DNA from: an uncultured Verrucomicrobia subdivision 3 bacterium
GTDB taxonomy: Bacteria; Verrucomicrobiota; Verrucomicrobiia; Limisphaerales; UBA11358
Direction of reading: 5' to 3'
Length of the DNA stretch: 42,042 nt
NCBI GenBank assembly: GCA_903889895.1
Contig: CAISYZ010000005.1
Coordinates: forward strand, 1-42,042
Within the stretch, counting starts at the first letter, position 1; each line of letters starts with the position of its first letter. The translations under genes were made by a program, and so were the position numbers. The notes under the pieces are model-generated. The model saw nothing but the letters and a program-made list of their open reading frames with translations. It was not told the DNA's origin and searched no databases. Positions 7,546 to 41,609 of the stretch are shown in pieces.

Positions 7546-10500
7546 TCAGGGCTGGGTCAGCCGGTAAAAGGCCGTGGGGTTGGTCGGACTAAGGTTGACC
7601 GTGTAAGGCGGCGTGGCTCCGGTCACGTTGAACCAATTGGTTGTCAGGCCCGTGCCGAGATTGTTGGTTTGCATCTGGAGCTGCCAGAGCTGGTTGGCCG
7701 GCCAGTCCAGGACCAACTGCCCCCCGCTGACCGAGTAGGTGATGATGCTGTTGGCAGCCGACGCCAGGTTCGTGGCCAAAAGGCCGATGTCGGATGGGGC
7801 CAAAGCCTGATTATAAATTCGCACGTCGTCAACGGCACCGTTCAAAAACTGGCTGGGCGCAGCGCCGGGCAGGGCGCCAATTCCTAGGGCACCGGTTCCG
7901 CTGGCAGCTTGGGCCAGCCCGGTGGTCATCAGCAGTCCGTCCACAAACAGTTTTCTGGAACCGGCCGCCCCGTTCTGCACGGCGGTCAGCAGATGCCACT
8001 GGCCGGCGTCCGCCGTGGTGTAACTGACAATATCTGTGGTGCCAAAAAACGCCCACTGATTGGCGGCGGTGATCCCCAAACCATACCACGCGCCGGCGGT
8101 GGGATCGGTTTGCACGATGGTGCACCGCGCATTCGGCAGATGCTTCAGCTTCACCCACGCCGAGAGCGTGAAGCTTTGTGTGCTGGTGAATTGAAAATCA
8201 GGAACATTGGTGATGCTCACGTATTGGTTGACGCCATTGAACGACAGGGCGGCAACACCCTCAATGCCGGTGACATAAGCCGGGCCGTTGATGGGGGTGC
8301 CATTGGCCGTGCCGGCCACGTCCAGTGGATTGTTTTCAAACCGCCATTCATGCGTCGGGGCCGGCATGGGGATGACCCACGGCGTGCCGCTGGTCTTGAT
8401 GCGGGTGCTCAGCCAGGTGTTCGGCGAACCGGCGGCTGTCACGGAAAACGTGTTGTTCGATCCATTGTTCGCCATCAGCACCCCGCCACTGGCCGCCAGA
8501 CTGGTCATGAAATGCCAGTTCTGATCATAGACCTGTGCCGTCGCCCCGCCGGAATACGTCAAGTAGCTGTTATAGGGTATCGTTCCGGAAATAGACACAC
8601 TGTTGCTGTTCAGCGTCAGGATTGGATTGGCGAGGCCGGTCAACTGATCCTCCTGCATCGCACTGATGCCGCTGATTTGCACCGTCGTCGTGGTATGCGC
8701 CGGCATCATCCCCACATACACCTGAAATGATACGATACCGCCATACCCGGCGCCCCCCCCAACGGTTGAGTAGTCACTCCAGAAACCGTAAGGGTTTTGC
8801 AGGTAATACATCACCTGACCGTTCGGAATCTCGATGGTCTTCGGGCCGGAAAAATTAATTGGCACCACATAGTCAGAGTTATCGCTGGAGCCGTCCGACG
8901 AGGCGCTGATCCTGAATACCAGGTCCGCCCCGCTATTGTCGCCCACCACCGTCAAGGCAACGCCTCGATTCGTGCTCATATTGAACGACGAGGCGCCATA
9001 AAGCGATGAATAGAGCCAGTAGGACTGGTTGCCGCCGGGCGTGAAAACCGCCTGGCTGCCGGTGTTGTTGGTCACCGAGAGATTAATCACCCCGCCGGCA
9101 AAGGCCAGGGGCTGAACTTCGTTGGCCGGGTGGACGATCTGGCTGGCGCTCACCGGCATCAGCGAAACATTGTTCGCATTGGTGGCGTTCATGCCCGGCA
9201 GCACCAGCAGCTCAATCTGCGGGGTCTGCGCGGCATAGGCATTCGTCAGGCCGCTGATGGCCACCCCGACTTGAGTGAACTGCCGGGGGGAAAACTGACC
9301 AAATTCCTGCATGTTGAAAAAGGGCGAATCCGCCGCCGGCCGGGCCATGACCCACATGGGAGTGACCTGCCATTGGTTGCTGCGCACGGTCGGCGCATAG
9401 AAGCCATAGTTGACCGTGGACAGGGCGGTTTGCTGGCTGGCCGACAGCCAGGGGCTTAGGGTCATCCAGATATTCATATTGGTCAACATCTGATCCCAAA
9501 GCCCAAAGTTGTTGATCATATCGAACGTCGAGCCGATATGCCCGCCCATCACCAGAAACCTGGTCCCTTGGGCCGCGCATTTTCCAAACGAGTAGTTCAT
9601 TTCATCCGCGTTGGGCGCGATTAAGTCCGGCAAGTTGGTCCGGATATAATAAGCCGTTCCACCGGTGGGCGGAGTCGTTTTTTGGATCCGCCGGAAAACG
9701 TCTTCAAAATGACCCTCGCTAACATTCCCCCCGTAGCTCGAAGTCGTCGGGTGATTCACCGACTGCTGCACATGCGTCGCAAACTTCCCATAACCCCAGT
9801 AGCCCAAATCAAAATTGATATAGTCCCCATCGTATTGCGCATCCACCAGATTGAACATATTCAACACATTCGTCGCAAACCGGGCGGCCAGGCTGTCGAG
9901 CAGATCCGAGCGGGAGTCCACCATTGGGAAACTGCCCTCGGCTGTGTCCAGAAAATCCACGCGGCTGCCGGCCTTGTGGCTGGTTCCCCACTGCTGGCCA
10001 TACTGGCCAATATAATTGCGGTTGACCCCGGAAACGCTCCAGTTCGTCGAACTGACCGCCGCCTGGGCATACATGATATCGTTGCTGATGCTGACCAGAC
10101 CTTGGGGCCAAAAATAGTAGGGAGGATAAAATATGGGCGTTGAGGAACTGCCCCAAGGCACCGGATTGACCAGCATTTGACAACCCGCATCGGGCAGGAC
10201 ATTGAAGCTGGTCGAGCTGCCGTCAATGTCGTTGAGCAGGGTGCCGGTGGCCCAGCGCGAGACCTGGGGTGATAATCCGTTCGGACTCGAAGCGCCATAG
10301 AGGGGATCATTCAGCGACAGGAAACCGGACATGGCGTGGAAATCCAGCCGGATACCCCGCTGCGCGCAATACTGCATATATGCCTGCATGCCCGGCGCCC
10401 CGCCCGCGAACCAGTTGGTGTCAATGGAATCCAGACAGGGAGATTCACCCCAGCAATTCCAGAGCAGCAATCTGTCAAAACCGTCGGAATACAGCAGGTT

Positions 10501-13500
10501 TGCTATCTGATAGAACTCATTCGTGGTTGAGGTGTTGGGGGTGCCCTCGGGAATAAATGCCAACTCCTTACAAGAAGACAGCTCCCGCTCGTATCGGTCC
10601 AGCCACGCCCAGATATCATTTTGCGTCCAGCTCGTCAGGTTGGCCTGGTTTGGTCGCGCCATGCACGGCTCGCCGCTCCACATATCCAGCAAAATCTGAT
10701 CATGCTGGTTATCGCTCGTAAAGAGGTAGAAACCCACGGCCCCCATCGGCTCGGAATTGGTAACGGTAAACGTGGCCTGACCGGTCCCCGTCACGCAGGG
10801 GGTGGGGCGTTGACTATACTGGACATTCTGCCAGTGGATGTTCAGCCAATTATAGTTATTATACCAAGCGGCAAAATATGGAAATTCCGTCATGTAATCC
10901 AGTTTCAAGGTTTGCATGGAATATCCGGCGGGCAGGGTGATATTAAGCCCTAAGACCACCTCATGTCCCGGCCAGTTGGTGTCAATGCCCCCCGTCTGCT
11001 GATTGTTGGACACATGCGCCAGCGCGATCTTGAAGTAGTCGGCCGCATTGGTGATGGTGAACGTGGCGGTGTAAAGCCAATTGTCCGACCACAGGAGCAG
11101 CTGGTTGCTGTTCAATTGAGCCATGTGGGTCAACGCATTGGTCGTGTTATCTATTTGATGATAGATATAAAAGCCCGGGGAACTGGAAAGCATCTGCGTG
11201 CCGGTGGGAACGCAAATCACGCTCGTGACGGCGGCATTCGTCTTGATGGTGATGGACATCTGCGAATTCGCGAAGGTCACACTCGTGGTCTGGGGCGGAA
11301 GAACAAGCTGGTTCAAGGTGTTCGTGCTGCCAGCGTAATTGGCGTCGCCCGAATAGCAGGCGGTGATGAGATTGGTGCCGGACGGCAGATTCGTGGTGGT
11401 CAAACTGAACGTCGTGCCGGCAATCAGATTATTCGTGCACAGCGGGACGCCGTTCGTCAGGAAGGTGACACTGCCGGTGGCATTGCTTGCCAGCAGACCG
11501 CTGTTTTGCACCGAGGCGATGAAGGTGACGGGCTGTTGCCAGGCACTCGTCTGGGCGGAGGACGCCAGCAACAGGGAGGAAGTTGTTTGGGTAATCAGCA
11601 CCGAGCCGGTCAAGCCGGTGACCGTGTAGTTGCCGGCCTGCGCGCCGCCCAAAGTCAGCGTGTTCGGCGAAATAATGGGTTCCATGCCCGTATTGGCGCC
11701 GGCCAGCCCGGCGCTGCCGGCAACCAGGAACACGCTGTCGCCGGCGAGAACGTTCGTGATGGTGAGGATGCCATAGACGGCGTTGGCGGTGCCGTCGTAA
11801 GCCCGGATGCCCGTCAGTCCCACCGGCAGCGGATTCACGATCTGCGTCAGGGTGTTCGCGCTCGGCTTGTAAGTGGCATCGCCACTGTATTGGGCGGTGA
11901 TGAGATGGGATCCCGCCGTGAGGTAGCCGGGGATCGTATAAGTGGCCGAACCGCCCGACACGGTGTTGGTCGCCACCGGCACGCCGTCTACGCTAAACAC
12001 AAAATTGCTGGTGCAGTTGCCGGCCGCAATGCCATTCGTTTTCACCGTCGCGGTATATGTAAGGCCGCCGCTGTTACCGTAAATGGGATTGCCCGAAGTC
12101 AAGGCCAGGGTGGTGGTGGTGAAGAACGAGGAGCCGGTGATCAACAGATACAACTCGCTGTTGCTGATGGCGAGCGAGTCCGTTCCGTTCGCGCCATCGC
12201 CATTGAACGTGAGGGGGCCGCCGGGGAGCGTGGCAACCGAACCGCTCGCGCCTTTGGCAATCAACTTGTAAGGAGACCCGGCCGCCGTCAGCGGCGTTCC
12301 GCCATTGGCGACGGTGATGGTCACCGGCGTGCTGGCACCCAGGGTCAGCGTGCCCGCACCTGACAGCGTCAGGGGAACTGCGCCGCCCGCACCTGCCGGC
12401 GTGAACGCGGTGAACTGAAGCGGGCTGGTGCCAGCCAGGGCAAGACCCTTGCCCGCAGCCGTGGCCAGCGTCGCGCTGCTGGTGCTGCCGCCGGCCTGAA
12501 GGGTTTGCCCGGCTCCCAGCGTGGCCGCCGTGCTCAATCCCGACACGCTCAATGTGGCGCCGCTGGCAATGGCAATAATCGGGCTGCTGGCAATGGAACC
12601 GCCGCCGCTCAAGGCCAGCGTCCCACCGTTGACAACGGTGCTGCCGGTGTAGGTGTTCGTGCCCGACAAAGTCGTCGTGCCGTTGTTGATGACGCCGGCG
12701 GCGCCTTGAATGGCGCAGGCGGCGGATTCGGTGAACGTGGCTCCGTTGCTGACAACGACCGTGGAGTTGTTGAGCGAGCCATTGACGGTTGAGAGACTGC
12801 TGTAGGTGGCCAGGGCCAGCGTGCCGGCGCTGATGACCGTATTGCCGCCATAGGTGTTGTTCCCGGAGAGCTGGAGCGTGCCGGGTCCGGCTTTGGTCAG
12901 CGAATAACCCTGTCCGTTGTCGCCAATCCCGGAGGCCACGGTGAGGGTTTTGGCATTGCAGGTCACCGTCACGTTGGTGCCCAGAAAGTAAGCGGAGCTG
13001 TATTTCAGGACCAGAGACGACGACCCGCCAAACGCAAAGCTGCCATTCCAATTCCCGGTGGCGGGATAACCCGCGAAGGTGGTCGTGCCGTTGGTGCTGT
13101 CAAGCGTGCCGCCATTGATGGTGAAAACACCCCCGCCATTCATCCATTGGGACGTGTTTAGATAAAGCGTGCCGCTGTTCAGCACCACGGCGGTTGAACC
13201 GATGCCGGAATTATCATACACCGCGCCGGCACCGTTCAGAATCAACCAGCCGCTTCCAACAGAAGAAGACCCTGCGATCACCACATTGCCACCATTGGTA
13301 GTGGTTATCGCGAGGCCGCCCAAATTCACGGAGCCATAGGCGGTCAACGTGCGGCCATTGGTGACCGACCACAATTGGTTGCCCGCCACAGTGACGGCAT
13401 TGGAGATGACGATATCCACCGTGGCGGACGACATGTCAATGCCCACTCCGCCCACTCCGTTCAAGGTCAGAGTGGAATGGGTATTGGTGAACACAACCGG

Positions 13501-14000: not shown

Positions 14001-15893
14001 GTGAAGCTCAAAATTTTTAGATTTATCGTCGGCTTGTTGTTTGGCTGCGTTTTAAGCGGAGCGGCTGCGGAAAACTCCCGGTGGATTCAGGATTTGCAGA
14101 ATGCTCCCGCCAGCGCGGTTTTGGCCGATGGAACCAGAGCTGATTCAAAGGTGTTGCCGGTGAAGCGTGCTTGGAACGGTTCGGTCTGCACGGCCACCGT
14201 AGTCAACACCGGCAAGACGCCGGTGCGGTTGGCGCGGGTGGACTTGTTTGATTTTCAGCACGGTCTGCCAGGTAGCACGCCCTTTTATGGCGAAGCCTTT
14301 CAGATGCTCGCGCAGAACGGCGGCACGCTGGCGGCACCCGAGGACTGGGGCAATTACCCCGACCGCAAACATTATCGCCTCGAAGAACCGGATGGCTTGC
14401 GCACCGCGCACGGCATGATGTTGCTGCGCCCGGCAGGGGCGGATCAAATTCTGCTTGGCTTCGGCTCCTGCCGCCGGTTTGACGGGCGGATTTCGTTTGA
14501 CGCGAAACGGCTGCTGGTTTCGCTCGATTGCGAAGGGCTGGAGCTGGCTCCGGGCGAAAGCTGGCCGTTGGAAGAGTTTTTTTGCGAAGCCGGCCCGGTG
14601 CGGGAAACCTTGTTGGATCACCTCGCTCAACGCATCGAAAAAAATCATCCGCGCCGGACCGGATTCAAGTCGCCGCCGCTGGGGTGGTGCTCCTGGTATT
14701 GTTTCGGGCCGAAACTCACGGTGCCGGACATCCGCCGCAATCTCGACTGGATCGCCGCCAACCTGCCGCAGTTGCGCTACATCCAGATTGACGACGGCTA
14801 CCAGCCATGGATGGGCGACTGGCTGGAGACCGGCAAATCTTTTGGCGGCGACATCAAGGGGGTATTGCGCGAAATCCGCGAACGCGGTTTCGAGCCGGCC
14901 ATCTGGCTGGCGCCGTTTGTGGCCAGCCCGGAATCCAAACTGTTCCGCGACCACCCGGATTGGTTCGTGAAAGATGCGACCGGCCAGCCCTTGCGCTCGG
15001 ACAAGGTGGGCTTCGGCGGCTGGCGGCTCGGCCCGTGGTATGCGCTGGACGGCACCCATCCCGAGGCGCAAAAATTTCTGGAACAGACCTTCCGCACCAT
15101 GCGGCAGGAATGGGGCTGCACCTATTTCAAGCTTGATGCCCTTTACTGGGGGGCGCTGAACCACGGTCGTTTTCATGATCCCAACGCAACCCGGATTGAA
15201 GCCTACCGGCGCGGGATGGAAGCGGCCTTGCGCGGGGCGGGCGATGCGTTTATTCTGGGCTGCAATCATCCCATCTGGCCCTCGCTCGGACTCCTCGATG
15301 GGGCGCGCAGCGGGAATGACATTTCGCGGGTCTGGCAGAGCATCCGAAACGACGGGCGGCAAAATTTATTGCGGGGCTGGGAGAACGGCCGGTTCTGGTG
15401 GAACGATCCCGATTGCGCCGTGTTCTCGCCCGGCATGGTGATGGACATCAGCGGCAATACGACCAGCACTACGGGATTGCCGCTCAACGAGGTGTTGTTT
15501 CATGCGACGACGGTTCATGCTTCCGGGGGCATGATGTTGAGCGGTGACGATTTGCCGGCGCTCGCGCCCGAGCGCGTGACCCTGTTGCGGAAGCTGATTC
15601 CACCGACGGGGCGGGCGGCGAGTTTTGCCGATGAGACGCTGACCGTCGGGCGCACGCCCAACGCGAATGGGGAGTATCTGTATCTGTTCAATTGGGGCGA
15701 TGCGCCGGCGGAGCGGGTGGTGTCGTTGACGCGCAAGATGAGCCTGAAAAACTATTGGACCGGTGAATCACTCGGCGAGCATCAAAGCGAATACCGTGTG
15801 CCGGCGCTGGCGCCGCACACCGCCCTGTTGCTCGAGGCCACCGACAGCGGGAAAGTAAAATCAGATGCACTGACCGCCTCCCGCAGCGAATAA
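14001..15893 (+). CDS. Secreted alpha-galactosidase-like enzyme (GH36/clan GH-D)
   Basis: It probably removes terminal alpha-linked galactose or a related sugar by a retaining mechanism. Start GTG 14001 gives a signal peptide (K-L-K then a hydrophobic core ending A-A-A). The N-terminal beta-sandwich (about 30-225) precedes a TIM barrel that opens with G-W-C-S-W-Y-C-F. The barrel has Q-I-D-D-G-Y-Q at about 255-261, the nucleophile signature F-K-L-D with D379, and the acid/base region D-G-A-R-S-G-N-D with D440. A short C-terminal beta domain follows. Its 630 residues fit a compact GH36 member. It is the first gene of the long plus-strand run and lies just after candidate operator site 2. Other clan GH-D activities, such as alpha-N-acetylgalactosaminidase, cannot be excluded. 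Confidence 0.87.
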   Translation: MKLKIFRFIVGLLFGCVLSGAAAENSRWIQDLQNAPASAVLADGTRADSKVLPVKRAWNGSVCTATVVNTGKTPVRLARVDLFDFQHGLPGSTPFYGEAFQMLAQNGGTLAAPEDWGNYPDRKHYRLEEPDGLRTAHGMMLLRPAGADQILLGFGSCRRFDGRISFDAKRLLVSLDCEGLELAPGESWPLEEFFCEAGPVRETLLDHLAQRIEKNHPRRTGFKSPPLGWCSWYCFGPKLTVPDIRRNLDWIAANLPQLRYIQIDDGYQPWMGDWLETGKSFGGDIKGVLREIRERGFEPAIWLAPFVASPESKLFRDHPDWFVKDATGQPLRSDKVGFGGWRLGPWYALDGTHPEAQKFLEQTFRTMRQEWGCTYFKLDALYWGALNHGRFHDPNATRIEAYRRGMEAALRGAGDAFILGCNHPIWPSLGLLDGARSGNDISRVWQSIRNDGRQNLLRGWENGRFWWNDPDCAVFSPGMVMDISGNTTSTTGLPLNEVLFHATTVHASGGMMLSGDDLPALAPERVTLLRKLIPPTGRAASFADETLTVGRTPNANGEYLYLFNWGDAPAERVVSLTRKMSLKNYWTGESLGEHQSEYRVPALAPHTALLLEATDSGKVKSDALTASRSE

Positions 15894-16769: not shown

Positions 16770-16818
16770 CTAATGCCGCTCGGAAAGATCGTCATTGTAT
16801 AATCCGATAATCACCGAA

Positions 16819-20654: not shown

Positions 20655-20939
20655 CATTTTATAAAAAACTGTCCCAGAAGGGCGTGAATATTGAGCGAAT
20701 TGGAGGGACTTTCAAATGAACCGGAATCCCGTCTGCGAAATGGGTTTAAGAATCTGGCGACATATTCGGTAATATGAAAACAAACTGTTTCAAAGGATCA
20801 AGTGAGATCCTCCAAGCGGGTCTGTGGTGGTATGCCCACGAATCGGCCGATCCCACCAGCGGGACCATAGCAGTCGGGGAGGTGGCGCAAGCCGAGCCAT
20901 TGCCATGAAAACAAACCTGACCCAATTCAAAATACTTTT
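20655..20939. other. Intergenic region with several short inverted repeats, no supported gene
   Basis: 285 bases between two esterase genes. It holds a perfect hairpin at 20761-20776 (CATATT-CGGT-AATATG), GGATC/GATCC arms at 20795-20810, GTGG/CCAC arms at 20824-20839 and the palindrome ATCGGCCGAT at 20842-20851. ATGAAAACAAAC occurs twice (20774 and 20905). A 43-codon frame begins at ATG 20774, but nothing identifies it as a protein. It could be a structured leader for the next gene or a decayed mobile sequence. Confidence 0.4.
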
Positions 20940-21824
20940 ATGAATAATCTATTTATTGTTATAGCATTGCTTTATGCGGCCTTGACTAGCACCTCGGTTG
21001 CCGAATCCAATAGCACCACGACTGGTTGTGCGGGCCTCAAAACCGGCGATAAGATTGCATTTTTAGGTGACTCGATTACCGCCCAAGGTTTTGACAACGC
21101 TGGTGGCTATGTCTGGCTGGTCATCAGTGGTTTGGAGAGCCTGGGGTTAAAGGTCACCCCTATCCCAGCCGGAGTCAGCGGCCACACCTCCAAAGATATG
21201 CTCGTGCGACTGAGCAAGGATGTGATCGCAAAAAAGCCGGACTGGGTCACTATTAGTTGCGGCGTGAACGATGTCTGGCATGGAGCCATGGGGGTGGAAC
21301 TGGCGGCCTATAAAGCCAACCTGAAGGCCATGGTGAATCAATGTCAGGCCGCCGGGATCAGGGTGATGCTGCTAACGGCGACCATGATCGGCGAAGATCA
21401 GTCGAATGCCAACAACCAGAAACTGGTCGCCTATAACGAAGCGGTCCGGATTCTGGCGCAGGAGAAAAAATGCCTGTTGGCTGACCTCAACGCCCGGATG
21501 CAGGTGGCGGTAAAGTCGCCCGAAAGGTCGGACTTGGTGGATCAGGGAAAAAAGCTAACCGTGGACGGCGTCCACATGAATTATTTTGGCAATGAAATGA
21601 TGGCTGAAGGGGTGTTGATCGCCTTCGGATTCACAGACGACCAACTAAAGATTGCAAGGAATAAATGGGCTGATTTGGCCAATACGATGAATTTGGGAAC
21701 AATGGCGGTTTCCTACCGCGAATACAAGGCCCTCGAAGCGGCCGCGGCCAAGCGCAAACAGTCGGTCAAGGGCATGGTGGATGCCGCAGTTGCCAAAACA
21801 CTGGCAGATTTGAGCAAAGATTAG
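20940..21824 (+). CDS. Secreted SGNH/GDSL-type esterase
   Basis: 294 residues, probably a carbohydrate O-acetylesterase. A short signal peptide is followed by block I F-L-G-D-S-I-T with nucleophile S45, block III G-V-N-D at about 103-106, and block V D-G-V-H-M-N with D209 and H212, giving a complete SGNH catalytic set. The spacing and length fit the rhamnogalacturonan-acetylesterase/lysophospholipase-L1-like group. A charged C-terminal helix rich in Ala and Lys (about 255-294) follows the domain. It is preceded by the structured intergenic region and followed by the transposase remnant. The substrate is inferred from the neighbouring rhamnosidases. Confidence 0.9.
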   Translation: MNNLFIVIALLYAALTSTSVAESNSTTTGCAGLKTGDKIAFLGDSITAQGFDNAGGYVWLVISGLESLGLKVTPIPAGVSGHTSKDMLVRLSKDVIAKKPDWVTISCGVNDVWHGAMGVELAAYKANLKAMVNQCQAAGIRVMLLTATMIGEDQSNANNQKLVAYNEAVRILAQEKKCLLADLNARMQVAVKSPERSDLVDQGKKLTVDGVHMNYFGNEMMAEGVLIAFGFTDDQLKIARNKWADLANTMNLGTMAVSYREYKALEAAAAKRKQSVKGMVDAAVAKTLADLSKD

Positions 21825-21871
21825 CGTAATAGTCATGCGCAATTTTTTATCCATAGTAATCCATAGGAAAC

Positions 21872-26055: not shown

Positions 26056-26080
26056 CCCTATAAAAACGACTCAAATAAAC

Positions 26081-31902: not shown

Positions 31903-31937
31903 TAAATTTCAGCTAACATGAATAAAATAACACCGCT

Positions 31938-33944
31938 ATGAAACAAAGTGTCATTCTAGCCTGCCTCCCCCTGCTTTTGTTGCTGGAGTTTTCACGGGTT
32001 CACGCCGAAGACTCCTTGCCCCCGCTGCAAGATGGCAAAGCCCCCACGAATTTAGACGAGCTCTGGGGAACTTACGATCCGCGCAAGGAACCGCTGGCGA
32101 TTGAGGTTCGGAAGGAGTGGGAAGAGGACGGCGTAGTTTGCCGCGTGATTCGCTATCAGGTGGGCATATTTAAGGGGGCGCCGGTGAAAATGGCGGGCTT
32201 CTACGCCTTCCCCAAAGGAGGAACTAAACTGCCCGCCATCTTGGAAATGCACGGCGGCGGACAGTCGGCCGGCTTGGATGGCGTGGTAGCCGCCGCCAAA
32301 AACGGCTTTGCGGAAATCTCCATCAACTGGGGCGGCAACAAACTGAACTTCGGGCGCTCCAAGATGACCTATGACGGCCCGCAGACCGACTGGGGCAAGC
32401 TGGACGCCACCCATCCGCCCCAGCGCAACAAGGCCAATCATTTTGCTGGCTCGCTGTCCCCCGATGAATACACCCTTGACGCCACCGAGTCGCCGCGCAA
32501 CAGCAACTGGTTTCTGGTGCTGCTTTCTGCCCGCCGGGCCATCACGTTTCTTGAAGAACAGCCGGAAGTAGATCCAAACCGGATCGGGATCACGGGACAT
32601 TCTATGGGCGGCAAGCTGACCACGGATCTGGCGGGGATTGACAAGCGGGTGAAAGCGGCGGTGGCGTCATGCGGCGGGGCTGGAGTAATTCCCGACAGTC
32701 TGGCCGAAGATTTGCCGGGCTGCGACACGTCCAAACCCTCGGCCATGGAACTGAACTGCGTGGCAGACAATGCTTATATTCCCCGGATTACCTGCCCGAT
32801 TCTCTGGCTGTCGCCCGCCAACGATTTTCATGGGGTCATCAACAACATGGCCTGGAACTGGCGCACCCTTCCCGATTCCCAAGTGGCTTTCAGCATCGCG
32901 CCCCATCTGAATCATCGCCACACCCCACCCCATGCGATTACCAGCCTGCTTTGGTTTGAACAGCATTTGAAAGGGGCTTGCACCCTGCCGGGAACCCCGA
33001 AACTACAGTTGAAGCTTTCAACCCAAGACGGCGTGCCCGCCGTGACCGTCACGCCCGACCAGCCCGCCGCCGTCAAGTCGGTGGAAATCTATTATTCCAT
33101 CGGCCTGAACGACAAGGTCCGTTTTTGGCGCGAGGCCAGGGAAATTAAAAATGGCAATGTCTGGAAGGCCACCTGCCCGATCATGAGTCTGGAGGATCCG
33201 GTTTTTGTGTATGCGAATGTGAGTTATGACACGCCGGAAAAATACAAAAAACCGGCGGGCGGCGAGGGTTCCGACTGGTTCACCTTGAGTTCCCGGGTGC
33301 TGACCGCGACTTCCGCTCAGTTGAAAACAGCGGGCGTGAAGGCAACCGACCACCCGGATCGTATGATTGATGACGGCAGCCGTGGCTGGGCGGACTGGTT
33401 CCAATTGAATTGGGATCACCCTCCGCTCTGGTCGGTCACCACCCGGAAGTTGACCGATCCGAAATGGCGCGGGCCGGATGGCGCCAAGCTGGTGTTTGAA
33501 ACCCGGTGCGAATCTGATAACACGCTGGTGATCAAATTTAACTGCAATGGTTGGGGCGTTTACCAGGCGGGAAAACCTATTGTGGATTATGTGGCCGTGA
33601 AGGAATTAAAAGGGTATCCGAACTGGCAAACCGTTTCCGTTGCGGCGGAAGATACGGTGGCACTGGATCCGAAAATTACCGGGCCGATTCCTAACTGGCA
33701 AACGGTCACCGAGTTCAGTCTTAGCCCCAGCGGCGAAACCGTCAAAAACGGAGTGAAAGTAAAAGTGGGCGGCAAGGCCTGGAACGGGCCGCGCGCAATC
33801 CGGAATTTACACTGGGTTGGCGGGGTGTATGTGACCCGGCGGCCGACCGATTCCAAGTTATCCGACGAGGAGTATCAGAAGCAATTCAACGATGCCATCA
33901 ACCAATCGTTGGCGCAGGAGAAACTGGATCAGAAGCTGAAATAA
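31938..33944 (+). CDS. Secreted alpha/beta-hydrolase esterase (paralogue of 18669-20654)
   Basis: 668 residues. A signal peptide is followed by a mature start almost identical to the paralogue (H-A-E-D-S-L-P-P-L). The hydrolase fold has M-H-G-G-G-Q, nucleophile S222 in G-H-S-M-G-G-K, acid D296 in P-A-N-D-F-H-G, and His residues H323/H326/H328 in A-P-H-L-N-H-R-H. The C-terminal module is shared with the paralogue: D-D-G-S-R-G-W-A-D-W, D-P-K-W-R-G-P-D-G and E-L-K-G-Y-P-N-W-Q-T. It likely deacylates the polysaccharide attacked by the neighbouring glycosidases. It starts 35 bases after the GH35 gene. The two copies flank the rhamnosidase/galactosidase genes and probably differ in acyl or sugar preference (inference). 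Confidence 0.86.
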   Translation: MKQSVILACLPLLLLLEFSRVHAEDSLPPLQDGKAPTNLDELWGTYDPRKEPLAIEVRKEWEEDGVVCRVIRYQVGIFKGAPVKMAGFYAFPKGGTKLPAILEMHGGGQSAGLDGVVAAAKNGFAEISINWGGNKLNFGRSKMTYDGPQTDWGKLDATHPPQRNKANHFAGSLSPDEYTLDATESPRNSNWFLVLLSARRAITFLEEQPEVDPNRIGITGHSMGGKLTTDLAGIDKRVKAAVASCGGAGVIPDSLAEDLPGCDTSKPSAMELNCVADNAYIPRITCPILWLSPANDFHGVINNMAWNWRTLPDSQVAFSIAPHLNHRHTPPHAITSLLWFEQHLKGACTLPGTPKLQLKLSTQDGVPAVTVTPDQPAAVKSVEIYYSIGLNDKVRFWREAREIKNGNVWKATCPIMSLEDPVFVYANVSYDTPEKYKKPAGGEGSDWFTLSSRVLTATSAQLKTAGVKATDHPDRMIDDGSRGWADWFQLNWDHPPLWSVTTRKLTDPKWRGPDGAKLVFETRCESDNTLVIKFNCNGWGVYQAGKPIVDYVAVKELKGYPNWQTVSVAAEDTVALDPKITGPIPNWQTVTEFSLSPSGETVKNGVKVKVGGKAWNGPRAIRNLHWVGGVYVTRRPTDSKLSDEEYQKQFNDAINQSLAQEKLDQKLK

Positions 33945-33962
33945 ATCCCGCTTATTACTATT

Positions 33963-36143
33963 ATGAAAATCAACTCCACCTGCCTGATTTTTTTAAAATC
34001 TCTTTTGACCAGCCTTCCATTGCCAATCAGGTTCCGCAGTCTGCTGCTGGCCGGATTCGGGGTTTGGCTTAATTTGGCTTCACCGATGGTCGCCGGGGAT
34101 TTTCTCATTCACGACGGCGACCGGGTGGTTTTTCTTGGCGACAGCATCACCGAGCAGCGGCTCTACACGACCTTCATCGAGGCTTATGTCCTGACGCGTC
34201 ATCCGCAATGGCAACTCACCTTCCGCAATACCGGTTGGGCTGGCGACACCGCCTTTTTCCGGTCACGCTGCCACACCGACGGAGGCAAGCTGATGGGGGC
34301 CAATGAGGCGACTCAGCAACCGATGATTGATGACTTTATTAAGCGCGGCTTGGGCCGTGATGTGCTGCCGCTTAAACCGACGGTCGTAACCATCGATTTG
34401 GGAATGAACGATATTTTCATTAAGCCGACGGAAAAGGTCTATCCAACGTATCTTCGCTGCGTGACCAAAATGGTGAAGGTGCTTCAGGAGAACAGGGCAC
34501 GCACCATCTTATTGACGCCACAGCCTATCGAGCCCAAACGACCGGATCCCGATCATGACGAAAACAACCAGGCGTTGCGCAAATTTTCAGACGGCCTGCA
34601 GGAGGTTGCCGCTAAAACCGGCGTCGCCTATGTGGATCAGTTTGATCCTTATATGAAGATTCTGCTGCGTGAGCGGGTCGGGAATCCAAATGCGTTCATA
34701 GGCGGCGGGGGGGATGTCCACCCCGGAGCCGTTGGGCATACCCTCATGGCCTGGGCGATTCTAAAGGGGCTTGGCGCGACGCCGTTGGTTTCGCGGGCAC
34801 AGATTGACGCCAAGGCCAAAACGCTGGTCACAGCCGAGGCCTGCAAAATTGAAAATCTCAAGGCATCCGGGGGCGTGATTGCTTTTGACCGCTTGGACGA
34901 TGCCTTGCCCATGCCCATCCATCCGAACGCCGGGCCGGCCCTGAAACTGGCTCCGATTCTTGAGGATTTAAACCGGTATGAACTGCAGGTCACGGGACTG
35001 TCGCCGGGGAATTATCAATTAACCATAGACGGTAAAGCCGTGGCAGAATTGACAGCGGAAGAATGGGGGAAGGGTTGGAATCTGGCCACCGACGCCGGGT
35101 CTATCACGCAACAAGGTCAGGAATTGTTGAAAGAGGTCGGCAAGAAGAACGATCTGTTCTTCAAGCGCTGGCGGAATGTTCAACTCCGTTCAGCTCCAGG
35201 TCAGGCCCCCGCACTGGAAACTGACCCCCAGCGCTTGAACGAATTGATTGCGTTGGATCAACAGATTGCCGAATCCGAAGCGAAAATTAACAAGCTGCGG
35301 CAACCGCAGATTCACCATTTTGAATTAAGCACAATCCAGATGCCCGTAATCATGTCGGTATGGCCTGCCGGAAAAATGCCCGGGAAAGGACCCAAAGAAG
35401 GTTCCGTGGAACATGCCCTGCCATCCCGGGGTGATAACGTGACGCGCCTGACCGATATCACCGAACCCACCATTGCCGTATTTCAGGCACCCGTCTCCAA
35501 GGCGGCCACCCCGGCCGTGATTATCTGTCCGGGTGGAGCCTACCAGATTCTGGGGTATGACAAGGAGGGCACAGAGATTGCGACATGGCTCAATTCCATT
35601 GGGATTACCGGAATCGTGCTCAAATACCGCGTGCCCAATAATCAGGAGGGTGCTTTTCAAGACATCCAACGGGCCATCTGTCTCGTCAGGCATAACGCCG
35701 CCAATTGGAATATCTCTCCGAATCACATTGGGGTCATGGGCTTCTCGGCTGGCGGCCATCTCTGCGCCCGATTGAGCAACAATTTCGGAAAATCCACCTA
35801 TGATAAAATGGATGGTGCCGACGATGAAAATATCCGCCCAGATTTCACCATCCTGGTTTATCCCGCCTATCTCAGATTAGCCCCCGGAAAACTCGCCAGT
35901 CAAACGACCCCCAGCACCCATACCCCGCCGACCTTCATGGTTCATACTGAAGACGACAAAATGTTTGTTGACGGAAGCAAGCTTTACCACGCCGCACTGG
36001 ATGAGGCAAAAGTGCCCAACGAGTTTTTCCTCTGCTCCGAGGGCGGCCACGGCTATGGCTTGCGCTCCGAAAAGGAAGTCAATGTGTGGCCAAAAAAGTG
36101 CCAGGCGTGGCTGATTAAGGAGGGAATACTTTCTTTAAGGTGA
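33963..36143 (+). CDS. Bifunctional SGNH hydrolase - alpha/beta-hydrolase esterase fusion
   Basis: 726 residues with an N-terminal signal. The SGNH domain (about 50-285) has F-L-G-D-S-I-T with S61, G-M-N-D at about 156-159, and G-G-D-V-H-P with D251 and H253. A small beta domain (about 310-380; P-I-L-E-D-L-N-R-Y-E-L, then G-N-Y-Q-L-T-I-D-G) and a helical linker follow. The C-terminal esterase (about 460-726) carries I-I-C-P-G-G-A-Y, nucleophile S595 in G-F-S-A-G-G-H, H-T-E-D-D near the acid and G-G-H-G-Y-G for the His. The esterase half is duplicated as the next gene. Two deacetylase-type active sites on one polypeptide suggest attack on neighbouring ester groups. Confidence 0.9.
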   Translation: MKINSTCLIFLKSLLTSLPLPIRFRSLLLAGFGVWLNLASPMVAGDFLIHDGDRVVFLGDSITEQRLYTTFIEAYVLTRHPQWQLTFRNTGWAGDTAFFRSRCHTDGGKLMGANEATQQPMIDDFIKRGLGRDVLPLKPTVVTIDLGMNDIFIKPTEKVYPTYLRCVTKMVKVLQENRARTILLTPQPIEPKRPDPDHDENNQALRKFSDGLQEVAAKTGVAYVDQFDPYMKILLRERVGNPNAFIGGGGDVHPGAVGHTLMAWAILKGLGATPLVSRAQIDAKAKTLVTAEACKIENLKASGGVIAFDRLDDALPMPIHPNAGPALKLAPILEDLNRYELQVTGLSPGNYQLTIDGKAVAELTAEEWGKGWNLATDAGSITQQGQELLKEVGKKNDLFFKRWRNVQLRSAPGQAPALETDPQRLNELIALDQQIAESEAKINKLRQPQIHHFELSTIQMPVIMSVWPAGKMPGKGPKEGSVEHALPSRGDNVTRLTDITEPTIAVFQAPVSKAATPAVIICPGGAYQILGYDKEGTEIATWLNSIGITGIVLKYRVPNNQEGAFQDIQRAICLVRHNAANWNISPNHIGVMGFSAGGHLCARLSNNFGKSTYDKMDGADDENIRPDFTILVYPAYLRLAPGKLASQTTPSTHTPPTFMVHTEDDKMFVDGSKLYHAALDEAKVPNEFFLCSEGGHGYGLRSEKEVNVWPKKCQAWLIKEGILSLR

Positions 36144-36230
36144 ACTGGCTTCAATCAATTTTAGCCCACATTTCCCAGATTAACTTCACACGACCGTGTT
36201 ATTTACTGACAAATGAGATTAATGACATCC

Positions 36231-37103
36231 ATGAAAACAAACCAACTCATTGCCATCACCGCCGCGATCCTGTCAGTTTATCCCATTGCCTCCGCACTGG
36301 CGCAGGAAACAACTCCCCCACCAGCCACCGTAACCATGCCCTTATGGCCCACGGGGAAAATGCCGGGCCACGGCGCAAAAGAACCAGAAAAAATGCTGCC
36401 AGCCAGAGGAGATGGGGCAACCCGGATTACAAATGTCTCCGAACCGGCAATCAGTCTTTACAAAACATCAAAAACACAAAACGCAACCAGCGCGGTGATC
36501 CTCTGTCCCGGAGGTGGCTATAGCATCTTGGCCATGGCTCCTGATCTGCCAGCCTGGCTCAATTCCATTGGCCTTACCGTCGTTGTTCTGAAATACCGGG
36601 TGCCCAATAATAACGAAGGGGCTTATCAGGATCTTCAACGCGCCATGCGTCTGGTCAGGCATAACGCCGCCAATTGGAATATCGCTTCAAACCACATTGG
36701 AGTCATGGGCATCTCGGCCGGCGGCCATCTCTGTGCCCGTCTGAGCGCCAACGGGGACAAGGCAACCTATCCAAAACTGGATAATATTGATGAAGAAGCG
36801 CTTCGTCCGGACTTTGCCATCCTGATCGTCCCCGCCTATCTATCACAAATTCCTGGCCACCTCTCAAAGAATGTTCAAGTCAACCAGAATACGCCTCCGA
36901 CGTTCATTCTGCATCCGGAAGACGACAAGCCCTTTATTCCGGGAACCAAATTATACCAAGCCGCATTGGAGGCGGCCAAAGTGGAGAACGAGTTTTTTAA
37001 CCCCGCCACTGGCGGCCATAGTTGTCCTTTGAAATCCAATGCGGAAATAGGTCAATGGCCAAAAAAGTGCCAGTCGTGGCTGATTAAGGAGGGAATACTT
37101 TGA
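36231..37103 (+). CDS. Secreted esterase (alpha/beta hydrolase), tandem copy of the preceding C-terminal domain
   Basis: Start ATG 36231 (M-K-T-N-Q) gives a standard signal peptide ending A-L-A-Q-E; in-frame ATGs at 36213 and 36222 only add residues. The 290-residue protein has C-P-G-G-G-Y, L-K-Y-R-V-P-N-N, R-H-N-A-A-N-W-N-I, nucleophile S162 in G-I-S-A-G-G-H, P-E-D-D-K for the acid and G-G-H-S-C for the His. DNA identity to the end of the previous gene is strong: 30 bases at 35685-35714 equal 36654-36683, and the 3' ends (W-P-K-K-C-Q-x-W-L-I-K-E-G-I-L) match. It probably arose by tandem duplication with loss or gain of the SGNH part. It is a likely acetyl/xylan-type carbohydrate esterase. 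Confidence 0.9.
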   Translation: MKTNQLIAITAAILSVYPIASALAQETTPPPATVTMPLWPTGKMPGHGAKEPEKMLPARGDGATRITNVSEPAISLYKTSKTQNATSAVILCPGGGYSILAMAPDLPAWLNSIGLTVVVLKYRVPNNNEGAYQDLQRAMRLVRHNAANWNIASNHIGVMGISAGGHLCARLSANGDKATYPKLDNIDEEALRPDFAILIVPAYLSQIPGHLSKNVQVNQNTPPTFILHPEDDKPFIPGTKLYQAALEAAKVENEFFNPATGGHSCPLKSNAEIGQWPKKCQSWLIKEGIL

Positions 37104-37299
37104 ATGTTAGTCCCGAGGGCGATCTAATCGCACAAAAATCACCTGTTGAATCCGGCCGGCTTGGCCGGAAACGAGGTTTGCGTTTCGCCGTCAAGGCTGA
37201 CGCCGTTTGAGAAAAAAACGATCAAATTTTCCCATAATATATTCAAGTATTACACTATATTTAGTATCGCAACATCATTCATCATCAACCATTAAATTC
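37104..37299. promoter_or_regulatory. Hairpin-bearing spacer and AT-rich candidate promoter region
   Basis: The spacer contains a hairpin TCCGGCC-GGCTT-GGCCGGA (37151-37169) and a second inverted repeat around 37189-37203 (CGTCA/TGACG arms). Neither is followed by a T-run, so they are not classical terminators. An AT-rich stretch (about 37210-37295) follows in an otherwise GC-rich region and could hold a promoter for the gene starting at 37300. No exact -35/-10 pair is convincing. Confidence 0.35.
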
Positions 37300-38643
37300 A
37301 TGAAACAATTCCACCACGGCTGCTATTTTCACACAGTCTTCATCGCCCTTGCTTTCTTTCAAGTGTTTTCCTTCGCCGTTTGGGCGGCCGATTACGAGTC
37401 GAAACCGGACGATCCGTATTTCCTGAAATTCAATCCGCGCAAGGCGCCGGCACCAGGGACGTTGCTGCTCAAGGAGGGCGATCGGCTGGCCATCATCGGT
37501 GACTCGATCACCGAACAGAAAATGTATTCGCGCATCATCGAAACCTACCTGACGGTCTGCGTGCCGGAACTGAAAATCACCGCTCGTCAATTCGGCTGGG
37601 GCGGCGAAACGGCGGAGGGTTTTCTGCGGCGCATGACGAACGACTGTCTGCGCTTCAATCCCACCATCGCGACATTGTGTTACGGCATGAACGACCACCG
37701 TTACCGTCCGTTTGACGTGGAGAACGCCGATTGGTATGTGGCGCGCTACTCCGCCGTGATGTCGAATTTGCTCGCGGCGAACTGCCGCGTGGTGCTCGGC
37801 TCGCCTGGCTGCGTCGGCAAGGTGCCTCCGTGGACGCATTCCAGCCCCTACACGCGCGATGAATTGAACATCAACCTGTGCGCCTTGCGCGATCTGGACA
37901 TCGGGCTTGCCGACTCCGGCGGAGCGCGCTTTGCCGACGTGTTTTGGCCGATGTTGAAAGCCGGCCGTGAGGGACAAAAAAAATACGGCACAAATTACAT
38001 GCTTTCCGGCCAGGACGGCGTGCATCCGGGCTGGGCTGGACATTTGGTCATGGCTTATTCCTTTTTGCTGGCGATGGGATTGGACGGCGACATCGGCACG
38101 TTGACCGTTGACCTCGGCACACAAACTGCCACCGCCACTTCCGGGCACACGGTCGAAAGTTTTACCAACAACCAGTTGACCGTCGTCAGCACAAAATACC
38201 CCTTCTGCGTCGGCGGCGAAACAAACAGCGACTACTCCCTCCGCTCCGGCGCGACGCTGGTGCCGTTCTTCGAAGAGCTGAGCCGTTTCAAGCTGATCGT
38301 CCGCCAAGCGCCCGCCGCGCAGTATCAAGTTGTTTGGGGCAACACCACGAACGTTTACACATCCGCGCAACTCGCGTCCGGCGTGAATCTCGCCGCCGAT
38401 TTCGTGGACAATCCATTTTGTGAACCGTTCCAAAAAGTGGATGAGGCGGTCAAGGCCAAGCAGGTTTACGAAACTTATCAGATCAAGCAGGTTTTCCACA
38501 GCAAGGAGGCGCAAACGAACATGGTCGCGGCCGTGGAAAAAACCGAAGGCGAGCGCTCGCCGCTCGCCGCCGCCATCGCCGCCGCGATGGTGCCCGTGCG
38601 GCATACCATCAGCATCTTGCCGCTGGCGGAAAGTAACCGATGA
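37300..38643 (+). CDS. Secreted SGNH/GDSL-type esterase with C-terminal accessory domain
   Basis: I use ATG 37300, which begins a signal peptide ending in W-A-A-D; the frame is open back to a TTG at 37207. 447 residues. Block I is I-I-G-D-S-I-T-E-Q with S69, block III is C-Y-G-M-N-D-H, and block V is G-Q-D-G-V-H-P-G with D239 and H242. The domain after about 270 contains L-V-P-F-F-E-E-L-S-R-F-K-L, Y-Q-V-V-W and G-V-N-L-A. This parallels the small domain after the SGNH part of the 33963-36143 protein, so the two share an SGNH-plus-accessory architecture. Its stop overlaps the first possible ATG of the next gene (ATGA at 38640). Confidence 0.88.
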   Translation: MKQFHHGCYFHTVFIALAFFQVFSFAVWAADYESKPDDPYFLKFNPRKAPAPGTLLLKEGDRLAIIGDSITEQKMYSRIIETYLTVCVPELKITARQFGWGGETAEGFLRRMTNDCLRFNPTIATLCYGMNDHRYRPFDVENADWYVARYSAVMSNLLAANCRVVLGSPGCVGKVPPWTHSSPYTRDELNINLCALRDLDIGLADSGGARFADVFWPMLKAGREGQKKYGTNYMLSGQDGVHPGWAGHLVMAYSFLLAMGLDGDIGTLTVDLGTQTATATSGHTVESFTNNQLTVVSTKYPFCVGGETNSDYSLRSGATLVPFFEELSRFKLIVRQAPAAQYQVVWGNTTNVYTSAQLASGVNLAADFVDNPFCEPFQKVDEAVKAKQVYETYQIKQVFHSKEAQTNMVAAVEKTEGERSPLAAAIAAAMVPVRHTISILPLAESNR

Positions 38644-38672: not shown

Positions 38673-41609
38673 ATGAAGAAGAAAATTTTTCTCGGCATCC
38701 TCGGTTTTATTTTGCTGCCGCTGTGCGGAGCTCAGGCCATCGAACTGTCGGCCGGCACGTTCACCCTAACCTTTGATAACGACGGTCGGCCAACCGCCGG
38801 TCATCGCAAAACTGATGGCGTGGATTTTTTGCACGCGGGCAATGGCGGTCAGGGCTTCTATCTGAAATCGCCCGATGCCGAGCCCGTCCGCCTAAATAAA
38901 TTGACGCTGCAGCCGGATGGCCGGCTCTCGGCTAAAAGCGATGATGGCACAAAGGAAGTTCTTTTCCGCGTGACGAACGGCCAGCGGCATCTCGCGTTGC
39001 GGATTGAACGAGTCCTGGGCGTGCCGCCGGAGAGTCTGGAGGAATTGCATTTTGACATGAACTCCGATCCGCATCTGCGGGTGCTGGATTTGGATTACAT
39101 GACAGAGGCGGACAACGGAAAACAAGGCGTCCGGGTGGTGTGGCCGGCCTTCTGGCATCGTTTACCACAGGATCCACTCGGCGGATTTGCCATCTACGAG
39201 AAGACTGACGATGAAGATGAGGACGCCACGCTGCTACGACTTTGGGTTGAGGAAAAGTTACCACATCCGAAAGTGGCCGGGGTCTGGACGGTGGAACGCG
39301 CCCATCAATGGATTGAGGACTGGCAGCACCGGTTTGCCGATCGCGGCCAGCTCATTTTGGCAGGCAAGAGCATCGCCGAGCTGCATGAGGGCGTGGCGTT
39401 CGCACACCGCGCCGGACTCCGGCAGATTTATTTATTCACGGACACTTGGCGAACCGACCCGTTCTGGCCGTCCACCGATTTGAACTGGGCGGTCAACCGT
39501 GCCGTATTTCCGCGCGGCGAAACAGATTTGCGCGAGTTCTCTGATTTCGTGCGAAGCCAGGGAATGTATCTTGCCTTGCATTATGTCAGCGGCGGGATTG
39601 GTCTGCGTGACCCGCTTTACGTTGGCCAGAAACCGGATCGTCGTTTTGCCTCATGGGGCGGCGGGCGGCTGGCGCGCAGGGTTGGAGCGGCAGACACGAC
39701 TCTCATTTTCCAGCCCGGATCAGGTGTGGTTCCACCCGCAGAACATCGCCCTGCCTACCCCCATTTCTTTGAATGGAACCTACTGCGCGTCGGCGATGAA
39801 CTGGTGCGCACCGGATCCATTGAACCGGGCACTGACGGCACCTGGACTCTGAAAAATTGCCAGCGCGGTCAAGGCTCGACGAAAGCGATCGCCCACCCGC
39901 AGGGAGAAGATGTCGCCGGCCTGCTGGTTGCCTATGGACAAAACCTGGTTCCCGACAACGACTCGTCCCTGTTGGATGAAGTGGCACAGAACTATGCCGG
40001 CCTGTTGAATCGCTGTCTGGTCGAACACGCGGAATTTGATGGCGCTGAAATTCATGCTCAGGACGGCAGATGGGGCTATCGCAAGTTTGCGACCCGCGTC
40101 TATGAAGCGTTGGATCACCCGACCACCGCACACGACAGCGGCGGCAGCCGGCCGTCGGCCTGGTTTGAATACAGGCTAAATTCTTCGCAGCGGCTCATGC
40201 GCGGAAGTTGCGCCTACACACACGGAAACTACAGCGTGCCGGTCACGCTCGCCACACCGTCGCGGCCAGCGACCACGTTGCTGGATGCGCACTTCATGCT
40301 CAGCCAGGGCAACTATGGCGGCGCGCTGGGAATCTCCAAACCGGAGCCGATGTTTGGCGTGACGCCCCAGACGCTCAAGGCGCATGGCTTGACCGATCAA
40401 TTTCTGGAAGCGCTCAACAATTGGAGGGAAATCGACACCTTGCTGAACGAACCACAGCGCAAAAACATAAACGACACTTTTGCCCAGCCCACGGGCGATG
40501 CAGCGAAGTTTAACCGCCATCTCCGTTCGCCGGTGGTCTGGGTGGCGAAAAAAACCGAAGGCGGCAATTACGAAATTGTTCCGACGCGTGTCCTCCTGCG
40601 CAACACTGGCGACATCCTCTGGCAAAATGGCCAGGAGCACGGCGCGATTTCACCGCGACAATTCATCAAGCCGGGAGAAACGCTGGCGTTGCAAAATCCT
40701 GAAGCCGCGCAACCCCTTCAGTTCATCCTCCATGTCTTGCCCGGATTCATGCCCCAGGCTCAAGCAGAACGGGCGAAAGCGGGAAGCGCTTCAGATGCAA
40801 GAACTGCGACCGAGTTTTTTGTTGCGGGCAATGACGCGACTGCACCCGCTTCGGGGAACGCCACGGCAAAGAACGTATTGCTTCAACCCGCCAACGCGCA
40901 AGCCATCCACGCCGGCGGTGACACCAGCATCCGCCTTGACGGTGACACGCTCGTGCTGACGGCCTTCAACCCAGATAACCTCCTGCGGCGGGAGACTGAA
41001 AAACTCCCTTCATGGAATGTAACCGTGGATATGACACACCGTCGCGGGTTGGGCATGTGGGTGACCGGCGACAATAGCGGCGCATTGCTGCTGGTGAAAC
41101 TGGGGCATCGCGATTATGTAGTGCCGGTTGATTTTACCGGTCGTCGCTACGTGGAAATTCCCAATGGGGAGGTTTCCTGGGCCAGCAGCGTTTGGGGCTG
41201 GCGCATGGAAACTAAAAGCGCCAACTATTCAAAAGTCCGCACCGTCGAGATTGGTTTCGGCCAGCTTCCGGCAGGCGGTAAAGCCAATGTGAAAGTTGAG
41301 CAACTCTCGGCGCTGGGCGAAATTCCTGTAACGCTGAATAACCCCGTCGTCAAAATCGGCACCGGCCAACTTCGCGTGCTGGGTGAAATTGCCAGCGGCC
41401 AGTTCCTGCAATACACCGGCGGCAACACAGCAACGCTCTACGACGAAAACTGGCACCAACTCGGCGGGTTCCCGGTTGAAAAAAACAATTATATCATGCC
41501 CACTGGCCACGCCACGGTCACCGTGACGAGCGAACAAGCCGCGCCTACGCCATGGCTGGATGTGCAATTTATTACCTCTGGCACGCCCATGACCCTCACC
41601 AAAAAATAA
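38673..41609 (+). CDS. Secreted enzyme-like protein of unassigned family, paralogue of the 7546-13791 fusion
   Basis: I start at ATG 38673 because it opens a clean signal peptide (M-K-K-K then a hydrophobic core ending A-Q-A). ATG 38640, overlapping the previous stop, would add 11 residues. 978 residues. The N-terminal beta domain (about 25-200) is followed by a probable TIM-barrel-like region. That region has Q-I-Y-L-F-T-D-T-W, L-H-Y-V-S-G-G-I-G-L-R-D-P-L-Y (about 39576-39620), F-D-G-A-E-I-H (about 40033-40053) and W-G-Y-R-K-F-A-T. The C-terminal beta modules carry G-D-N-S-G-A, D-Y-V-V-P-V, E-I-P-N-G-E and T-S-G-T-P. These motifs align in order with the fusion protein. The acidic F-D-G-A-E motif and barrel-like layout suggest a glycoside hydrolase. 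No known family was recognised. Confidence 0.75.
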   Translation: MKKKIFLGILGFILLPLCGAQAIELSAGTFTLTFDNDGRPTAGHRKTDGVDFLHAGNGGQGFYLKSPDAEPVRLNKLTLQPDGRLSAKSDDGTKEVLFRVTNGQRHLALRIERVLGVPPESLEELHFDMNSDPHLRVLDLDYMTEADNGKQGVRVVWPAFWHRLPQDPLGGFAIYEKTDDEDEDATLLRLWVEEKLPHPKVAGVWTVERAHQWIEDWQHRFADRGQLILAGKSIAELHEGVAFAHRAGLRQIYLFTDTWRTDPFWPSTDLNWAVNRAVFPRGETDLREFSDFVRSQGMYLALHYVSGGIGLRDPLYVGQKPDRRFASWGGGRLARRVGAADTTLIFQPGSGVVPPAEHRPAYPHFFEWNLLRVGDELVRTGSIEPGTDGTWTLKNCQRGQGSTKAIAHPQGEDVAGLLVAYGQNLVPDNDSSLLDEVAQNYAGLLNRCLVEHAEFDGAEIHAQDGRWGYRKFATRVYEALDHPTTAHDSGGSRPSAWFEYRLNSSQRLMRGSCAYTHGNYSVPVTLATPSRPATTLLDAHFMLSQGNYGGALGISKPEPMFGVTPQTLKAHGLTDQFLEALNNWREIDTLLNEPQRKNINDTFAQPTGDAAKFNRHLRSPVVWVAKKTEGGNYEIVPTRVLLRNTGDILWQNGQEHGAISPRQFIKPGETLALQNPEAAQPLQFILHVLPGFMPQAQAERAKAGSASDARTATEFFVAGNDATAPASGNATAKNVLLQPANAQAIHAGGDTSIRLDGDTLVLTAFNPDNLLRRETEKLPSWNVTVDMTHRRGLGMWVTGDNSGALLLVKLGHRDYVVPVDFTGRRYVEIPNGEVSWASSVWGWRMETKSANYSKVRTVEIGFGQLPAGGKANVKVEQLSALGEIPVTLNNPVVKIGTGQLRVLGEIASGQFLQYTGGNTATLYDENWHQLGGFPVEKNNYIMPTGHATVTVTSEQAAPTPWLDVQFITSGTPMTLTKK

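Follow-up and report, generated by a model that had tools for sequence, protein, structure and literature searches.

The glycoside hydrolase (GH) families GH27, GH31, GH36 and GH97 make up the alpha-galactosidase superfamily, as set out in the part of the paper drawn on here (Naumoff 2005, PMC1249566). By structural similarity we also count GH101 and GH129 into it, a grouping of our own. We describe here two proteins encoded on a 42,042-nucleotide stretch of DNA from an uncultured Verrucomicrobia subdivision 3 bacterium (contig CAISYZ010000005.1; the window). One is a free protein (38673..41609, + strand), while the other is carried behind PATR repeats (the fused protein; 7546..13956, - strand). 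Our reading, at a probability of about 0.7, is that both belong to a single glycoside hydrolase family, so far unclassified, whose fold is that of the alpha-galactosidase superfamily. In GH36 enzymes the nucleophile is an Asp at barrel strand 4 and the acid/base an Asp at strand 6, and the end of strand 4 is the nucleophile's place in both GH36 and GH101. For GH101, the part of PMC11861894 consulted gives the motifs VDWQD, EGHD, V/I-H-V/I-N and RFLxN, together with a DDE triad.

Two divergent members of a candidate family

Both reading frames opened as a preliminary description of the window, made from its letters, had stated. The free protein lies in an open reading frame (ORF; 38640-41609) that opens at an ATG at 38640, overlapping the stop of the GDSL gene, and the fused protein in an ORF of 2136 amino acids (aa) with Pfam matches. 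The start codons implied for the two, at 38673 and 13791, are both ATG and each stands ahead of a signal-peptide-like stretch. By BLASTP the two proteins aligned at 218 bits (E 1e-61), with 244 of 998 columns identical (24%), and this placed the family region of the fused protein at residues ~900-1870 (8347..11259, - strand). This is its predicted catalytic region, as also judged from the homologue search, the model and the fold matches. In a control against 500 shuffled versions (501 subjects, 319 of which gave any hit), the real fused domain scored 221 bits, and the shuffled versions at most 30.4 bits. The alignments of the free and fused subfamilies matched each other at 100% over 897 columns in hhalign. 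As for the ordered motifs said to be shared, all 12 strings tested were present in both proteins in identical order. For D-x-N-W (two copies in the free protein, three in the fused), BLASTP aligned the middle copies, but they lay a few columns apart in alignment A5; since the two disagree, this motif is doubtful as a shared site.

We observed no Pfam or NCBIfam model above its cut-off for the catalytic part of either protein. The free protein had no NCBIfam match and a single Pfam match (Pfam was searched up to E 1 throughout), below its cut-off. This match, to PF23666 (Rcc01698_C), was rejected as the identity of the protein: it does not name the enzyme, because at 21.9 bits it is below the cut-off of 27 and confined to the beta insert described below. 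PF23666, which we take to be the C-terminal part of an Rcc01698-like, gene-transfer-agent tail protein, was precomputed for 14 of the 120 listed homologues. The fused protein matched only PATR, YDG, Big_3_5 and Laminin_G_3 in Pfam, besides one chance hit, and only the PATR repeat in NCBIfam. PF02065 (Melibiase), PF12905 (GH101) and PF11308 (GH129) matched neither protein; in the genome of the organism (G000), the GH101 profile gave 0 matches at E up to 0.001, and PF11308 had none. Against PDB sequences the free protein had 0 hits up to E 10, and the fused protein two weak hits in its PATR part only (best E 0.023). Profile A1 found nothing but TIM barrels designed de novo, with a best E of 0.0018, and one antibody chain, all of which we took as chance. 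Thus, the profile search led to no significant match of both proteins to an existing family, and judged by Pfam, NCBIfam and PDB sequences they are a candidate new enzyme family. In the open-access literature, no paper was found that links the autotransporter-associated beta strand, Verrucomicrobi and glycoside hydrolases, and among the papers listed on new GH families with Verrucomicrobi, GH36 or GH129 none concerned this family by title; such absence proves little.

Of 7999 candidates scored for the free protein, 196 were relatives at E up to 0.001, against 11 of 7985 for the fused domain; none of the 120 listed free-type relatives carries a functional name. The mixed alignment, used as query, brought up 199 proteins, with four new ones among the 120 listed. 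The 24 loci read come mostly from metagenome-assembled genomes (MAGs) of Verrucomicrobia, Akkermansiaceae, Opitutae, Planctomycetota, Lentisphaerae and Hydrogenedentota. When profile A5 was run on 387 genomes of the phylum and no more than two candidates were scored in each, 34 of them, including that of the organism itself, matched at E up to 1e-10, and 13 of these at E below 1e-100; among 146 closer relatives, 25 matched at E up to 0.001, again counting the organism's own genome. One homologue of 1307 aa (P0070) has PF13859, PF02012 and PF13088, presumably all of BNR/sialidase type, ahead of the family domain. Many of the weaker matches resemble a distant group, of which eight proteins were read (L134-L141). 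This group is unannotated and GH36-like, has the equivalent of Asp467 (see below) without that of Glu510 in all eight, and is another candidate family; the six members scanned had no Pfam or NCBIfam match over cut-off.

Predicted structures and relation to GH36, GH101 and GH129

Structure prediction gave models with pLDDT of 90.5 (free) and 84.6 (fused) that share one plan rather than having different folds. The plan consists of a mutarotase-like beta-sandwich, a (beta/alpha)8 barrel into which a small beta subdomain is inserted, a C-terminal sheet and a CBM11/30-like sandwich. In the free protein (+ strand), the N-terminal beta-sandwich covers residues 34-187 (38739..39200; DSSP of the model) and the barrel about residues 210-625 (39267..40514; model, Foldseek and VIA). 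The small beta subdomain, weakly PF23666-like at 380-425, lies between barrel strands 3 and 4 at residues 338-431 (39651..39932). The C-terminal beta-sandwich, at residues 745-895 (40872..41324; model, VIA and alignment A5), is CBM11/30-like through homology to the fused protein.

The best Foldseek matches of the free model were GH36 alpha-galactosidases, and the eight best of the fused model were all GH101-type endo-alpha-N-acetylgalactosaminidases. It is because of these best folds that we place the family as an unassigned branch of the alpha-galactosidase superfamily. The Foldseek and VIA matches of both models span sandwich and barrel, those to GH36 beginning at free residues 28-69 (VIA). 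The free protein shares the N-terminal beta-sandwich and the (beta/alpha)8 barrel with GH36, but the free and fused proteins differ from it by the beta insert after strand 3 and by the CBM11/30-like and final beta domains. GH129 enzymes (the 3,6-anhydro-D-galactosidase ZgGH129 and the alpha-N-acetylgalactosaminidase NagBb) are also alike in structure across sandwich and barrel; in profile comparison with GH129, however, the free alignment gave only 0.9%. An unassigned glycoside hydrolase family, as first proposed, is thus well supported by the lack of a passing model, the shared glycosidase plan and the presence of GH36, GH101 and GH129 among the nearest folds. The proposal had left open a hydrolase or a lyase. 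Hydrolase folds are the nearest, whereas no polysaccharide lyase was among the Foldseek and VIA rows listed, and as far as the families in the VIA listing reach we set the lyase aside. We also considered that the proteins, with this fold, might act as transglycosidases or phosphorylases. Transglycosidases occur in the GH36 and GH31 groups, and Foldseek listed GH31 transglucosylases for the free model. However, both are secreted proteins whose cluster, with its glycosidases and esterase-like genes, is degradative, and we regard such an activity as very unlikely.

In profile-profile comparisons, the merged free and fused barrel scored 63.9% with GH101 and 0.4% with GH31. The distant group scored 100% with the free family, 99.4% with the fused, 93.2% with GH36 and 5.5% with GH31, and a barrel profile of all four groups 80.0% with GH36, 77.2% with GH101, 2.7% with GH31 and 0.1% with GH129. 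Known relatives of the fold can also miss each other, as seen from the calibration pairs (GH101-GH36 57.6%, GH36-GH31 54.8%, GH129-GH31 3.2%, GH129-GH36 0.2%, GH101-GH31 0.1%). At the level of sequence, these links speak tentatively for a single superfamily and do not place the proteins in any of its named families.

Several results weigh against this placement. The free alignment by itself scored 12.5% with GH101, 8.2% with GH36, 0.9% with GH129 and 0.2% with GH31, none significant; the corresponding scores were 9.3, 0.8, 0.3 and 0.6% for the fused alignment and 1.1, 0.2, 0.4 and 2.6% for the intermediate group alone. The calibration pair GH101-GH129 reached 99.4%, by contrast with these direct scores. 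The merged barrel gave only 11.6% with GH36 and 0.7% with GH129, and the distant group 11.3% with GH101 and 2.8% with GH129. The comparison sets, taken by Pfam from Verrucomicrobiota genomes, were small (GH129 20 rows, GH36 25, GH31 20, GH101 6), and four of the six GH101 rows were hits under 70 bits. The better profile alignments cover strands 1-3 only, and because they end at strand 3, Asp467 is placed by strand count and conservation. Query-normalised TM-scores were at most 0.30 for both models, and the VIA Z-scores of the free model were tied between GH36 (13.8) and GH13-type enzymes (13.5-13.8). The barrel alone does not tell GH36 from GH13 in VIA, and matches to the sandwich only include glucoamylase-type enzymes. 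The fused model has no DSSP strand before Asp496, and Glu510 is found in none of the eight distant rows. The substrate, being read from neighbour genes, is a guess.

Conserved residues and a proposed mechanism

We aligned 100 rows (70 free, 11 fused, 11 intermediate, some of these near-identical, and 8 distant). Asp467 (40038..40040, + strand), at the end of barrel strand 4 (463-467 in the model), was kept in 100 of 100 rows, and is the very Asp of F-D-G that had been picked for substitution. Glu510 (40167..40169, + strand), after barrel strand 5 (496-499), was kept in all 92 rows of the free, fused and intermediate groups. His314 (39579..39581, + strand), directly after barrel strand 3 (310-313), was kept in 99 rows and Asp324 in 98. 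From conservation and the model we infer that Asp467 may be the catalytic nucleophile and Glu510 the acid/base. By alignment, the fused equivalents are Asp1376 (Asp496 of the modelled piece; 9829..9831, - strand) and Glu1418 (Glu538; 9703..9705, - strand). The place of Asp467 agrees with that of the GH36 nucleophile; the position of Asp549, after strand 6, holds Asp in 63 of 70 free rows and Glu in 11 of 11 fused rows. A retaining double-displacement reaction would use Asp467 (fused Asp496) as nucleophile and Glu510 (fused Glu538) as acid/base, His314 and Asp324 would shape the -1 subsite, and the beta insert and the CBM11/30-like module would hold the chain.

The fused protein could instead be a non-catalytic adhesin that has retained the fold, with only the free protein an enzyme. 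The polar residues E465, H472, D499, R512, R542 and E569 of the free family are mostly changed in the fused group, and the fused model lacks strand 4. However, all 11 of the 11 fused rows retain both Asp496 and Glu538, and we consider it quite improbable that the fused protein is an adhesin.

His314 coincides with the conserved GH101 His, which also follows strand 3 directly, in local hhalign alignments. Of the GH101 motifs in the part of PMC11861894 consulted, only the His of the third has a counterpart in the local alignment, which stops before the last two catalytic residues. The acidic residues are spaced differently from GH101. In dEngBF4, a design derived from EngBF, the nucleophile Asp156 and the acid/base Glu188 are 32 residues apart (PMC10949244, as far as the part consulted gives it), against 43 between Asp467 and Glu510.

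These comparisons bear on the alternative of a GH101-like, endo-acting O-glycanase that would free oligosaccharides from fucosylated glycoproteins or microbial O-glycans, and whose fused form would lie outside the cell. The GH101-type Foldseek matches of the fused model argue for it, as do GH29 as a repeated neighbour and P0070, with its accessions that we take to be sialidase-type in front. The three acidic barrel residues conserved here also recall the DDE triad (PMC11861894, in part). On the other hand, the triad spacing is 143 and 43 here versus 106 and 26 in POGase AS, the best matches of the free model are GH36, and the genome has no GH101 profile match. The rhamnosidases, GH35 and several esterase-like genes of the cluster point to a polysaccharide. 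We hold an O-glycanase to be unlikely, and return to the reading of one unclassified family.

Domain context, gene clusters and recurring pairs

The fused protein (all - strand) carries an approximate PATR repeat region (12577..12909; two matched stretches, best 353-382; PF12951 E 7.2e-13, TIGR02601 E 3.6e-13). This is followed by a YDG domain at residues 718-780 (11617..11805; E 8.4e-07), a Big_3_5 Ig-like domain at 798-881 (11314..11565; the best of two stretches) and, behind the family region, a ConA-like Laminin_G_3 domain at 1908-2057 (7786..8235; E 4.9e-22). Pfam thus bears out the proposed order of PATR and Ig-like modules in front and LamG behind. The modules of the proposed surface-tethered form are therefore present, but Pfam and NCBIfam up to E 1 showed neither an autotransporter beta-barrel nor a known anchor. 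PATR repeats are common to this protein and type V autotransporters; instead of their C-terminal outer-membrane beta-barrel, it ends in LamG and about 80 residues. Through its PATR/Ig/LamG stalk, the fused enzyme would probably be kept on the cell surface or beyond it, and the free enzyme would be secreted. A further PATR/Ig-like protein (1-3576), cut by the window end, lies divergent beside the kinase gene. At another locus (L007:12426-18737), a 2104-aa PATR protein with Alpha_L_fucos (GH29) and CE2_N adjoins a free family gene; from this it appears that clusters of this type combine PATR stalks with more than one kind of enzyme.

The neighbouring genes (all + strand, by library scan) are a two-component regulator (3566..7505; a Reg_prop/Y_Y_Y/HisKA_3 kinase and a LuxR-type response regulator), a GH36-like protein (14001..15893; Melibiase match of 37.6 bits, cut-off 27), a GH29 alpha-L-fucosidase (16795..18648; E 4.2e-74) and a GDSL esterase whose gene immediately precedes that of the free protein (37207..38643). 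Between GH29 and GDSL lies a block (18669..37103) of esterase-like genes (AXE1/DLH, GDSL, BD-FAE), GH78-type and GH106 rhamnosidases and a GH35 beta-galactosidase. The description of the free form as a plain secreted protein in a glycosidase/esterase cluster fits its signal-peptide-like start and these neighbours.

A compact second version of the cluster is found on contig C227 of the same assembly (L130, L131). The identities were 81% (kinase), 83% (regulator), 91% (GH36-like), 89% (GH29), 91% (GDSL) and 85% (free protein), but only 53% for the fused protein. The block is not at the corresponding place there, and on this 35.9-kb contig tblastn (E up to 1e-5) matched neither the rhamnosidases nor GH35, which puts them outside the core as far as C227 reaches. 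The suggested rhamnogalacturonan or arabinogalactan substrate gains no particular support from a shared core of kinase, regulator, GH29, GH36-like and GDSL genes. Since the MAG has a completeness of 75.7% and a contamination of 4.9%, the clusters may come from two organisms and not from duplication; C227 may be a paralogous locus or a second strain in the bin.

In five further genomes, a single contig carries a pair of divergent family members separated by 7 to 21 kb. The genomes G461 and G356 are near-identical, and one partner has an added N-terminal part (1466-1474 vs 1008 aa), with a discoidin domain in the longer protein of G461, the one scanned. G392 and G372, of the same genus, likewise have one extended partner (1058-1080 vs 800-819 aa), and the G317 pair lacks such an addition (916 vs 804 aa). 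In a tree of 51 sequences, the PATR-fused proteins formed one clade (support 1.00) and the other pairs sat in another (support 0.84, with weak internal support). Pairing therefore seems to have evolved repeatedly.

The flanking ORFs were called mechanically, and some are surely spurious; 101 were chosen at 24 loci (56 tallied together and 17 scanned singly, plus two beyond the 101, L007:1-5181 and L008:11984-13552). Neighbours of the other pairs (10 ORFs) include sulfatases, GH116 and LamG proteins. Among the 56 neighbours of other loci, the commonest families were AXE1 (4), DLH (4), Alpha_L_fucos (3) and GDSL (3), with kinase and F5/8C domains at 3 each. L155, L156 and L157, beside paired members, gave a weak match to the N-terminal sandwich (17-26 bits); two carry LamG, and they are possibly further relatives.

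Both enzymes, acting alongside GH29, the esterase and the GH36-like enzyme, would strip an acetylated glycan that contains fucose and galactose. Since those specificities are known in the nearest folds, we tentatively suggest as the bond cleaved an alpha-D-galactoside or an isosteric one (alpha-GalNAc, anhydrogalactose or beta-L-arabinopyranose). The part of PMC8857213 consulted describes Verrucomicrobiota as feeding on algal sugars rich in fucose and rhamnose and as having GH36 near rhamnosidases, and this fits the picture of a fucose-containing glycan. That such pairs recur suggests that the free and the carried enzyme divide the labour between them. A more speculative, and doubtful, extension is that this GH family of the Planctomycetota-Verrucomicrobiota-Chlamydiota (PVC) group and allies works as a pair. 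In it, two divergent paralogues of a locus, one free and the other carried behind an extra N-terminal module (a PATR/Ig stalk in the window, elsewhere a discoidin-type or unassigned extension), would cut different bonds of one fucosylated O-glycan-like or exopolysaccharide chain.

In our own judgement, new GH families are not rare in such MAGs. What makes this one worth testing is the recurring pair, together with a single Asp kept in every row; the family also offers a clear candidate for the catalytic residue, and its models are confident. If active, the proteins would constitute a new CAZyme family, and part of the unassigned degradation of fucose- and rhamnose-rich sugars by Verrucomicrobiota would become testable.
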